Assembly (NCBI GenBank): GCA_019312705.1
Contig: JAFDCW010000279.1
Span: 1-6,364, forward strand
Reading direction: 5' to 3'
DNA from: Deltaproteobacteria bacterium
GTDB taxonomy: Bacteria; Myxococcota; Polyangia; Polyangiales; B10-G4
Length of the DNA stretch: 6,364 bases
Part shown: in pieces, positions 2,050-4,874 of the stretch
Position numbering within the stretch: the first letter of the stretch is position 1
How the letters are laid out: each line of letters opens with the position of its first letter
The notes under the pieces: model-generated
Seen by the model: only the letters and a program-made list of their open reading frames with translations
The model's database searches: none
What the model was told of the DNA's origin: nothing
Program-made: the position numbers and the translations under genes

Positions 2050-2122
2050 AATTTCCCGGCACGAACTTTGTTAGAGGGAGTTCGTCCGGCGGACGGCTGC
2101 ATCGATGGAAGGTTGGAGTGTC

Positions 2123-2695
2123 ATGATCCGAGCTGAAAGAGTTCATACCGGGGGCTCACCGGGCCTCCGGGGCCTTCGGGGCGTCCGGCGCCTCTCGCGC
2201 CCCTCGGGCATTGGCGCAGCTCTCCTCGTCGCGCTTGGGCTCTCGGCATGTGGGGCGGGCGGAACGACGAGCTACTCCATGGGAGATATCGTCGATGGCG
2301 CGCCCTCCGGCATGCTCGGCGGAGCCACCTGGTCGATGCAGGCGGCGGTCGTGACCGTGACGGACGACGAGCTACGCGTCGGCCTCTTCCCCAGCGAGGT
2401 CGAAGGCTGTGAATCGCGCGCTGGGCGCCCCAAGCTGCTTCGCTTCGACGTGCCGCGCATGGAGGGGGAGTATCCCCTCGACCTCGATTTCTCAGCGATC
2501 GCCGAGCGTCAGACCATTACGTTCGTGACGGCGCCGGGTCGCAACGTCGTAGCCACCGAAGGCCTCATCGTCGTCGAGGACCTCGACGAGGAGACCGTCA
2601 CCCTCGGCCTCATCGCCGACGCCGGCGACGGAAACCACATGAACGGCCGCGTCACCGCGACCCTCTGCGGCAACGACCGAGACCACCGACACTAA
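2123..2695 (+). CDS. Small exported lipoprotein of unknown function
   Basis: A 190-residue protein with a lipoprotein signal: an arginine-rich n-region, a hydrophobic stretch, and the lipobox LSAC with the lipidated cysteine at residue 43 (followed by GAGG). The ATG at 2123 is preferred because GGAAGG (2107-2112) and GGAG (2115-2118) lie just upstream; the in-frame ATG at 2105 would add six residues and has no close ribosome-binding site. The n-region is unusually long (about 28 residues) with no later in-frame ATG. The mature part, about 148 residues, is beta-rich in appearance and has two further cysteines (C96 and C182) that could pair in the periplasm or outside the cell. The motif-free sequence, ending NHMNGRVTATLCGN, resembles small lipoproteins common in Myxococcota, but I do not recognise a named family. 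It is preceded by the TGTCCA-N4-TGGACA repeat and converges on the minus-strand genes. Confidence 0.85.
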   Translation: MIRAERVHTGGSPGLRGLRGVRRLSRPSGIGAALLVALGLSACGAGGTTSYSMGDIVDGAPSGMLGGATWSMQAAVVTVTDDELRVGLFPSEVEGCESRAGRPKLLRFDVPRMEGEYPLDLDFSAIAERQTITFVTAPGRNVVATEGLIVVEDLDEETVTLGLIADAGDGNHMNGRVTATLCGNDRDHRH

Positions 2696-2969
2696 AAGAG
2701 TATCGCCTGGAGCGCGATCCACGGCGCGAGGTCGGCAAGAAGGCGGAGGGCGACGCGAGTCGACCGGAGCTGGATTGACTACCGGATCTGGCCCCGGTTC
2801 CTGCGCTGCCTGCTCACCTACGAAAGGTAGGCTCCGCTAAGCTGCTCGGAACCGAGACCACCTCGCTTGTGCCTCACGCTCCATCCGACACTCTTTAGAG
2901 GCCTTCCCAACGGGGCGCACTCCGAGCGCCCGCAGGCATCGACCGAATCGCGAGTCACGCCCAGCTGAC
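2696..2969. other. Non-coding stretch with several small hairpins
   Basis: I see no convincing gene here on either strand. Three compact hairpins are present: CCTAC-GAAAG-GTAGG (2817-2831), CTCGG-AA-CCGAG (2845-2856), and GGGCGC-N7-GCGCCC (2913-2931). None is followed by a T-run. Positions 2953-2964 hold a sequence complementary to part of the right arm of the large hairpin that follows. The stretch could be the 3' untranslated region of the lipoprotein gene or part of a longer structured RNA. Confidence 0.5.
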
Positions 2970-3095
2970 TAGAAGGCGTCCAGTTGCGTCATTGGCCGAG
3001 CGCGCCCGCAGGGGCCTGCCGAAGGAATACCAGAGGTATTTCGAGGTAGGTGCCGAGGACGTAAGCCGGCCAATGGCGTGACTGGGCGTCTTCTA
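2970..3095 (+). repeat. 126-nt long imperfect hairpin, structured RNA or TA-bounded MITE-like element
   Basis: Positions 2970-2998 pair with 3067-3095 as a continuous 29-bp stem: 24 Watson-Crick pairs and 5 G.U pairs when read as plus-strand RNA (2976/3089, 2979/3086, 2985/3080, 2986/3079, 2989/3076). Inside, 3011-3020 pairs with 3045-3054 (two G.U pairs, one G.G mismatch) and 3024-3031 pairs with 3035-3042 (one G.U pair), closed by an AGA triloop and separated by a GAA/GA internal loop. The linking part, 2999-3010 against 3055-3066, can form further short pairs. On the minus strand all eight wobbles become A.C mismatches, so the fold favours a plus-strand transcript. Both ends carry TA (2970-2971 and 3094-3095), as an IS630/Tc1-type miniature element would. 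The right end overlaps the stop codon of the minus-strand gene. No T-run follows on either strand, so a simple intrinsic terminator is unlikely. Confidence 0.75.
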
Positions 3096-4874
3096 AATGC
3101 GGTAGGGGAAGCTGACTTGGAACGTGGGCCGACTAAACCGCGGGAACCGCGCCCCTCGGACCGCTCGAGCCACGCAGGAGCCGATTGGCGTGCCCGCGAA
3201 CTGGCCGGTGACGCGTGCGTTGGAGACTCGGCCGTTCGTGCCGGATACCGTGATGGTCGTATTGGCGACGCCGTGCTGGCCCTCGCCGCAGCGACCGACC
3301 GCGCCCTGCACGCTCCGGAGGGCGCGGAGCACTCCATCGCGGGGCGGCGCCTCGGGGAGGTTGCTGCCCGCGGGGGCGGCCGCCATCATCGGCGCGGCCA
3401 TCATGCCGCCGAGGGCTGCGTTGAGCAGGTCATCGATGTCACCACCGCCGCCCGAGGTCCTCGTGGCGGGGGCTGATGCGGGGGTTGGGTTGGATGCCGC
3501 CGCCATGGGGGCCCTGCCGCCGGTTCGCGGGCGACGCCGCATGTTGGCGCCGCCTCCGGCCGTGTCGGCGCCCTCGTCGGCGCCCTCGTCGGCGCCTTCG
3601 TCGGCCGTGGGCGTCGCCTGGGCAGGAGCGGGCAGCGCCCCGGCCGTTGCTGCGCCGGCTTCCGTCCCCGGTGTCGGGGCGGTGCCTTCACCTGCTGCGA
3701 TGGCACCGGCGCCCGGTGAGGCCCCGTTGGCCGCGATTGCGACCGGCTCCGGCTCCGAGGTCACGACGACCGCGATGACCGCCGCCGCAGCAATGGCGAC
3801 GATGCCTCCGACCACCGAGACGGCGATGATGAGGCCATTGCCGCTCTTCTCTTCCTGAACCGGAGCCAGGACCGGCGCGCCGAGGCCGCTCGCCATGGGC
3901 GATCCCGTGCCGATGCTGAGAAGCTGGTCGACGCTGTCTTCGTTGGAGGCTGCGCCTCCGCCAAAGGCAGGTCCGCCGCCTCCGCCCGATACGCCGGTCG
4001 CGGTGGCGAGGGCCTTGATGTCGATGAGGCCCGAGCCTTCGCCCGATGCGTGACCGGTCTTGGGGCTCGACGAGCCCATCGACGACGAGCTCATCGACGA
4101 CGCGCTGCTCGACGAGCCACTCGGGCCCCCCGTCGCCAGCGCCTGAAGGTTGGAGAGCGAGAAGAGAACGGAGTTCTCGTTGCGCTGACCGGTCATCGCC
4201 TGGTCTGCACTCACTCGGGGACCGGGGGAACTCGCGACGACTTCGTCGTCGCCTCCGCCCGCTTCGAAGGGGCTACCGCCGGCGTCTTGCTGAGCGAAGA
4301 GGTCCGCGCCGCCTCCGCTCTCTCCGCCGCCGAACCCGGCGTCACCGCCGAAGCCCGCGTCGCCGGACGCTGCGAAGAGTCCGCCGCCGCCGGCGTCCGC
4401 CGCAGGCTCTGCGCCGGCGCCTGGATCGCTCGCCCCGGCGGCATAGGGATCGGCAGCTTGGTCGCCGAACGCGCCGGCGTCCGCCGCTGCCGCTGCCGCC
4501 GCACCTTCTTGCGGTTGGCCGGTGATCGCCTCGACGAGCTCCGGCACGTCGCGGGCGGCGAGCCAGTTTTCGAACCCCTCGCGCCACACGTAGACTTCCC
4601 AGTCGATGGTGCCGGCGGTGAGCATCTCTCCGAGTTGCCCCGGAGCGAACGGGCCCTGCTGATCTCCGTCGACGACGGCGTGCCAGACAACGTCTGGATT
4701 ATCGTCACCGTAATCGTAGACCTGGGTCGACTCGTCCTTCGGTTGATCGAGTTGATCGCCCCGAACGACGATGACCTCGCTGCATTTCTTGCAGCGGATC
4801 TTGAAGACCTTTCCGGCGACTTTCTCGTCGGCAATCGAGTACTTAGCGCTGCAACTTTCGCAGACGATCTTCAT
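3093..4874 (-). CDS. AgmX/GltJ-like zinc-ribbon, GYF, single-pass membrane protein
   Basis: A 593-residue protein whose ATG at 4874 has AGAGG nine bases upstream. Residues 1-39 are an MJ0042-type zinc ribbon (C5/C8 and C28/C31). Residues about 63-114 are a GYF_2-type domain (W64, QQGPF 72-76, VYVWREGFENW 94-104). A disordered Ala/Gly/Ser linker (about 120-345) carries three conserved-looking motifs at 232-247, 282-290 and 313-322. Residues 348-371 are a membrane helix, followed by a periplasmic Ala/Pro linker with GADE repeats (424-437) and a DIDDLL helix at 479. Residues 514-593 match the AgmX/PglI C-terminal domain, with its cysteine pair at C529 and C567. In Myxococcus xanthus, GltJ (AgmX) has this layout; its cytoplasmic zinc ribbon and GYF domain bind the polarity GTPase system of the gliding machine. 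No other glt/agl gene is visible here, so this may be a paralogue with another envelope role. Architecture is firm; function is inference. Confidence 0.93.
   Translation of the reverse strand: MKIVCESCSAKYSIADEKVAGKVFKIRCKKCSEVIVVRGDQLDQPKDESTQVYDYGDDNPDVVWHAVVDGDQQGPFAPGQLGEMLTAGTIDWEVYVWREGFENWLAARDVPELVEAITGQPQEGAAAAAAADAGAFGDQAADPYAAGASDPGAGAEPAADAGGGGLFAASGDAGFGGDAGFGGGESGGGADLFAQQDAGGSPFEAGGGDDEVVASSPGPRVSADQAMTGQRNENSVLFSLSNLQALATGGPSGSSSSASSMSSSSMGSSSPKTGHASGEGSGLIDIKALATATGVSGGGGGPAFGGGAASNEDSVDQLLSIGTGSPMASGLGAPVLAPVQEEKSGNGLIIAVSVVGGIVAIAAAAVIAVVVTSEPEPVAIAANGASPGAGAIAAGEGTAPTPGTEAGAATAGALPAPAQATPTADEGADEGADEGADTAGGGANMRRRPRTGGRAPMAAASNPTPASAPATRTSGGGGDIDDLLNAALGGMMAAPMMAAAPAGSNLPEAPPRDGVLRALRSVQGAVGRCGEGQHGVANTTITVSGTNGRVSNARVTGQFAGTPIGSCVARAVRGARFPRFSRPTFQVSFPYRI
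3564..3606 (-). repeat. 12-bp tandem repeat encoding Gly-Ala-Asp-Glu
   Basis: Three full copies of GTCGGCGCCCTC (plus-strand reading; the third has one change) and a partial fourth. They encode an acidic run of GADE units at residues 424-437 of the AgmX/GltJ-like protein, in the periplasmic linker just after the membrane segment. The unit is a multiple of three, so copy-number slippage would change linker length without breaking the frame. Confidence 0.85.

Follow-up and report, generated by a model that had tools for sequence, protein, structure and literature searches.

A many-copy hairpin element of myxobacteria-like bacteria, mostly placed on stop codons and in one orientation

The hairpin at positions 2970..3095 of the window, by which we mean the whole stretch of 6,364 nucleotides analysed here, belongs to a mobile DNA element, termed element A, that is present in many copies in myxobacteria-like bacteria. 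Its many copies rule out a single-locus riboswitch-like RNA. One strand of the element, the plus strand, is selected to fold, and presence, absence and decay of element A at orthologous sites among sister genomes are shown below. We consider it somewhat probable (about 0.6) that element A is a non-autonomous MITE-like element of ~126 nt which moves as a folded single strand into the TA of stop codons.

The hairpin and its distribution

Element A in the window (plus strand) is 126 nt long with TA at both ends. Its plus-strand fold has 53 pairs and an energy of -89.0 kcal/mol (z -10.7; 200 shuffles, mean -45.7, 0 as good), and the minus strand folds more weakly (-56.9 kcal/mol, z -5.1). The left TA flank (2970..2971) is a putative target duplication. 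The near-invariant core, delimited in alignment A1, consists of a 5' half, CGAGCGCGCCCGCAG, at 2997..3011 and a 3' half, CGAGGACGTAAGCCG, at 3054..3068, both on the plus strand, and encloses an apical hairpin (3024..3042, plus strand) of the GGAATACC.. type, one of two subtypes recognized by copy comparison and alignment. The right TA flank (3094..3095) forms, together with C3093, the minus-strand TAG stop of a convergent gene (3093..4874, minus strand) with zinc ribbon and GYF_2 domains. A previous sequence-only reading of this DNA had placed the end of the hairpin on that stop codon, and this is correct (CTA, 3093-3095); the folding strand is antisense to the convergent gene. The same reading had noted the lack of a terminator T-run and of any nameable RNA family. 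Both observations hold: by eye, no T-run of an intrinsic terminator follows the hairpin in the window sequence, and no Rfam covariance model matched the window or seven loci with other element A copies. In contrast, a link of the hairpin to the upstream lipoprotein gene is unsupported. The lipoprotein-like gene (2105..2695, plus strand; no Pfam family, lipobox assigned by eye) has its stop codon at 2693-2695, the hairpin starts 274 bases past it with two further repeats, elements B and C, in between, and the mobile repeat is linked instead to the stop of the convergent gene. Several element A copies are also without an upstream plus-strand gene in a simple gene model. A fragment at ~2921-2940, GAGCGCCCGCAGG, resembles the 5' core of element A and is absent at this place in the orthologous locus L073; possibly it is a remnant of another copy.

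The closest relative is MAG B10_G4 (G001), whose aminopeptidase shares 97% identity with the one encoded at 1-1164, and further relatives by this protein are Myxococcales, Sandaracinaceae and Deltaproteobacteria MAGs, which makes Myxococcota the probable phylum of G001. Scoring 40 of 72 candidates in G001 yielded at least 29 copies of element A at E<=1e-14, 78-92% identical, and at least 31 at E<=1e-6. A covariance model was built from 32 copies (alignment A1) and scores the window copy, itself one of the 32 members, at 128.5 bits. With this model, 40 of 282 genomes of the same phylum matched at E<=1e-3 and 32 at E<=1e-8, under strict filters and with at most 12 candidates scored per genome. 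One of 15 genomes from other phyla (Planctomycete and Elusimicrobia), for which more candidates were scored per genome, also reached E<=1e-3 (best 34.1 bits); the tally of 40 thus contains weak matches, hence the stricter count of 32. The MAGs surveyed are fragmented and incomplete. The window copy had no match in plasmids, and viral contigs held no exact match to one degenerate core pattern of the element. As in MITEs, a short palindrome without a protein gene is found in many dispersed copies. In G234 and G130 the copies are near-identical and several lie at contig ends, and in L092 and L094 two copies stand directly in tandem. At five loci (L062, L070, L076, L079, L087) an intact copy is preceded by a truncated one and/or by an AT-rich GTAAGACAATTAAGCAACC stretch followed by a short CCCCAA/TTGGGG-like hairpin; this arrangement may represent a deletion derivative or a promoter.

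Strand-specific folding

Standard pairs occupy 94.4% of the 1435 pair cells in the 32 copies, and two-sided compensation is seen at 35 of 45 pairs. None of 500 shuffles matched the pairing or the compensation, and sliding the partner by 1-3 columns left 32-43% paired, a control in which the consensus structure is favoured over the slid versions since it derives from the same 32 copies. Thus, the covariation of paired positions that the sequence-only reading had asked of homologues is present. The arms vary and compensate around the near-invariant core, CGAGCGcGCCCGCAG / CGAGGACGUAAGCCG in alignment A1, in which 4 copies have C-G in place of one G-C pair (columns 41 and 99). Compensation is also seen between orthologs: at the 3' end of nrdJ, L092 has A-U where L121 has an outer C-G pair. 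The window and L073, which occupy the orthologous place, have the outer arms in common, whereas the inner stems differ, each being internally paired, and the apical subtypes differ as well.

Departures from Watson-Crick pairing are strongly asymmetric. On the plus strand, the 32 copies contain 157 G.U and 12 A.C pairs, which shows that one strand is selected to fold, and 49 distinct rows from other genomes contain 156 and 13, respectively (beyond alignment A1, the counts draw on the 85 best of 90 matches, with 80 distinct rows among them). The parity of A.C and G.U that had been named as fatal to a strand-specific fold is therefore not what the copies show. In the window copy, all departures in the outer stem are G.U, as had been claimed; a pair listing gives these five as 2976.3089, 2979.3086, 2985.3080, 2986.3079 and 2989.3076. 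The inner stems had been credited with three wobbles and one G.G mismatch. The G.G (3013.3052) stands, the wobbles number four (3002.3062, 3014.3051, 3018.3047, 3025.3041), and there is in addition a C.A at 3005.3059, so that a supposed eight of eight in one direction becomes nine G.U wobbles with one C.A running against them. This C.A sits in the conserved core, with the C >=90% conserved and the A invariant in the 32-copy alignment. Folding of 66 copies gave a more stable plus strand in 63, with a mean gain of 14.5 kcal/mol; L132, L100 and L134 are without this advantage. Recombination or template switching can keep inverted repeats complementary but should give no wobble bias. The proposal that a folded plus-strand RNA has been kept is therefore right about the strand, but the folded molecule may be RNA or single-stranded DNA, either of which gives the same wobble signature. 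Some copies lie between same-direction genes, where a plus-strand transcript is not expected.

Stop codons, target sites and neighbouring repeats

In a simple codon-usage gene model, 57 of 78 copies of element A have their right end <=12 nt from a minus-gene stop, and 10 of 78 have their left end equally close to a plus-gene stop. Counting only exclusive cases, 50 copies touch a minus gene with the right end and 3 a plus gene with the left end. Right ends at minus-gene stops mean that the folding strand is antisense to the gene touched. All ten copies that G130, G222 and G234 contribute to the count, with their longer arms, are among the 18 in which neither end touches a stop. The 78 copies comprise 62 of 90 matches from a first set and 16 of 20 loci from a second. 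Excluded were seven contig-end copies in G234 and G130, L148, eight copies interrupted by element B, both copies each of L094 and L158, further copies in L092, L139 and L156, five weak opposite-strand matches and L254-L257. Since copies in the count are related (nrdJ orthologs, the window and L073, copies within groups), a binomial test of the orientation overstates certainty. The abutting genes are mostly unrelated, with all-against-all matches only among the nrdJ-like orthologs and between the window and L073. Judged by sequence, some of the genes abutted by element A resemble purA, nuoD, groEL, nusG, apt and nrdJ. Some of the abutted genes are presumably essential, with element A beside purA-, nuoD-, groEL-, nusG- and nrdJ-like genes and element C beside a bamA-like one. 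Many arms in G001 end a few nt off the stop, and TGA stops are common there. Convergent neighbours are frequent around element A in the gene model; the neighbour in L126 is convergent by comparison with G006, unlike the gene-model call. The two copies in L158 (G092), at 1751-1883 and 2462-2594, both fall within a predicted open frame and so break the stop-codon rule.

Flanking TA dinucleotides were counted in the G007 group (G004, G006, G007, G008, G146, G184, G194), in which G006 and G007 are 88% identical across 21 kb. TA precedes the left end in 18 of 22 copies and follows the right end in 21 of 24, and 15 of 20 copies have it at both ends, against a background of 1.6% of dinucleotides in the G007 loci; ends too diverged to place were left uncounted (9 left, 7 right, 31 loci). 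Like these, the window copy is flanked TA..TA, the pattern of a TA target duplication. Orthologous sites were compared at three loci. At the first, the gene has a native TAG stop and no hairpin in G146 and G184, in G007 a full hairpin begins in that TAG, in G006 the core of the hairpin is deleted between short repeats, and G004 and G194 retain arm remnants (G008 is uninformative). At the purA site the hairpin is present in two of seven genomes, G007 and G008. At the apt site, inspected in three genomes, G007 has the hairpin, G006 lacks it and G008 has a remnant.

Two further repeats share the intergenic region of the window. The left part of element C (2692..2729, plus strand) starts on the TAA stop of the lipoprotein gene, element B, ~55 nt long, is inserted into C (2730..2784, plus strand) and is absent from the orthologous L073, and the right part of C follows (2785..2896, plus strand). 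The copy numbers of both were obtained from G001 alone. Element C has at least 40 copies there (43 matches, 40 of 100 candidates scored), with ends of the form cTAAACAGTRTCG...CGAYACTGTTTA. Among 20 inspected copies (L191-L210), 16 start exactly on an upstream stop codon, and in all 20 the antisense strand is the more stable one. L192 has its right end on a stop, L193 and L195 touch no stop and L203 is without upstream sequence; the gene calls at L202 and L209 are weak. Element C thus largely follows the stop-codon rule of element A. The 3' end of the nrdJ-like gene carries C in G001 (L201) and A in G004, G007, G008, G184 and G194; nrdJ-like loci with A instead of C are L121, L092, L093 and L160. 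Element B, with at least 43 matches in G001 (40 of 103 candidates scored), is a module of a conserved core and varying, mutually complementary arms. It is inserted into C in the window, into at least eight copies of A in G001, and into copies of itself (window 2730-2784, L087, L072, L074, L076, L079, L080, L088, L089, L091); tandem matches occur at G001 C142.

Mode of movement and competing explanations

Element A works most like a TA-terminal MITE, but conserves its inside and is oriented on stop codons. The RUP, Correia/NEMIS and ERIC MITEs are described as dispersed elements of ~100-200 bp with TA termini, the transcripts of which contain long stable stem loops (PMC2229807). Element A resembles them in size, dispersion and TA termini. 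It differs in that conservation across many genomes of the phylum is confined to the inner core rather than to the ends, and in its strand-specific compensation and its location mostly on stop codons in one orientation. With REP/REPIN sequences it shares dispersed hairpins of which some are near gene ends; REPs <=15 nt from a stop are reported to stall ribosomes (PMC12306157). In comparison to REP/REPIN-RAYT systems, element A is larger and without a linked Y1 transposase (30 loci). In Coxiella, one QMITE is described as an in-frame insertion at the 3' end of a gene that supplies the last 33 residues with a stop just downstream, and in another strain a stop directly precedes the element (PMC5896051). 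What is described there is a single case, in contrast to the oriented stop-codon rule of element A. No published description of element A was found among titles and abstract beginnings, a search whose coverage mostly excluded subscription journals.

We propose that element A would move as a folded single strand, either as ssDNA or as RNA that is copied back. A putative enzyme would recognize the core of the folded strand, and joining would take place at TA, in GC-rich genomes often the TA of a TAG or TAA stop. The first base of the element (G or A) would then restore the stop codon and so leave the gene unharmed. The orientation bias might arise because joining is strand-specific or because a strong hairpin in the sense mRNA is selected against. 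IS630 reportedly prefers TA within CTAG, a finding said to date from work of Tenzen and Ohtsubo in 1991. CTAG would be expected to be commonest at stop codons in a GC-rich genome, which would explain the position of element A, but not its orientation.

The search for a mobilising enzyme found none, as all 64 Y1, DDE_3, integrase and RT loci were without the hairpin. No copy occurred at 30 Y1 transposase loci (of 34 listed Y1 matches) and none at 34 DDE_3, integron-integrase-like and RT loci (14 RT; the integrases were the ten best of many). A RAYT/REP system was rejected on the Y1 loci and on the lack of Y1 in 8 of 22 carriers searched. An integron attC system was rejected since an integron integrase scores above the cut-off in 2 of 26 genomes only, neither of them G001 or G007; weaker tyrosine-recombinase matches are common to all 26 genomes and all 14 controls. 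A retroelement (group II intron, retron) was rejected as RVT_1 is present in 8 of 18 carriers and element A in none of the 14 RT loci; G001 and G007 have one RT each, and G002, G004, G006, G008, G035, G092, G146, G184, G194 and G254 gave no RVT_1 match. DDE_3 is above the cut-off in 5 of 26 genomes and in none of G001 and the G007 group. This covers one DDE family in incomplete MAGs, and an IS630-type enzyme stays among the candidates.

Among the alternatives, a one-way transcription insulator survives best, though we think it unlikely. The hairpin, which would form strongly only in antisense transcripts, would halt the polymerase or expose RNase III sites, so that antisense transcription is stopped before the 3' end of the gene while sense transcription passes, to the benefit of the host. 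The orientation bias of 50 to 3, the more stable antisense strand of both A (63/66) and C (20/20), the frequent convergent neighbours and the occupation of the nrdJ 3' end by A in five genomes and by C in G001 would all suit such a function. However, hairpin presence differs among sister genomes, several copies lie between same-direction genes in the gene model, a T-run is absent by eye, and an invariant core of ~30 nt is more than a terminator should require. Still less probable is an ordinary DNA-transposase MITE with TA duplication (IS630/Tc1 type), in which the fold and the wobbles would be by-products of an old palindrome. TA on both sides of element A points to this type, as do the 5'-TA-3' termini of RUP, Correia and ERIC MITEs (PMC2229807) and the insertion of ISY100 almost only at TA, which it duplicates (PMC2170065). 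But it is the inner core that is invariant, and the ends differ from genome to genome; a transposase that recognizes the ends would need the opposite. Neither the G.U excess (157 to 12) nor the orientation bias fits; the scarcity of DDE_3 described above also argues against it. In integrons, the folded strand of attC is antisense to the gene and lies directly after the stop codon. Element A has the same geometry, but an attC-like site used by a tyrosine recombinase via its bottom strand is very improbable given the rarity of the integron integrase (2/26 hosts), the TA flanks, the mostly single dispersed copies and the fact that no cassette arrays were noticed in the fetched contexts.

It is tempting to speculate, at clearly less than even odds, that the unrelated-looking hairpin families A, C and, in part, B of one genome obey one rule and represent a class of mobile elements. 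Such elements would move as folded RNA or ssDNA and be aimed at stop codons, with an enzyme that reads structure rather than ends and a junction made to the template strand of the gene. If our reading of element A is true, many genes across the phylum, some of them presumably essential, carry mobile hairpins on their stop codons, and the protein end, intact in the compared cases, would reflect the use of safe harbours by the element. That selection acts on one strand and keeps the core invariant implies that the folded strand is read by something. With sites that are empty, full or decayed, the mode of movement can be tested directly.
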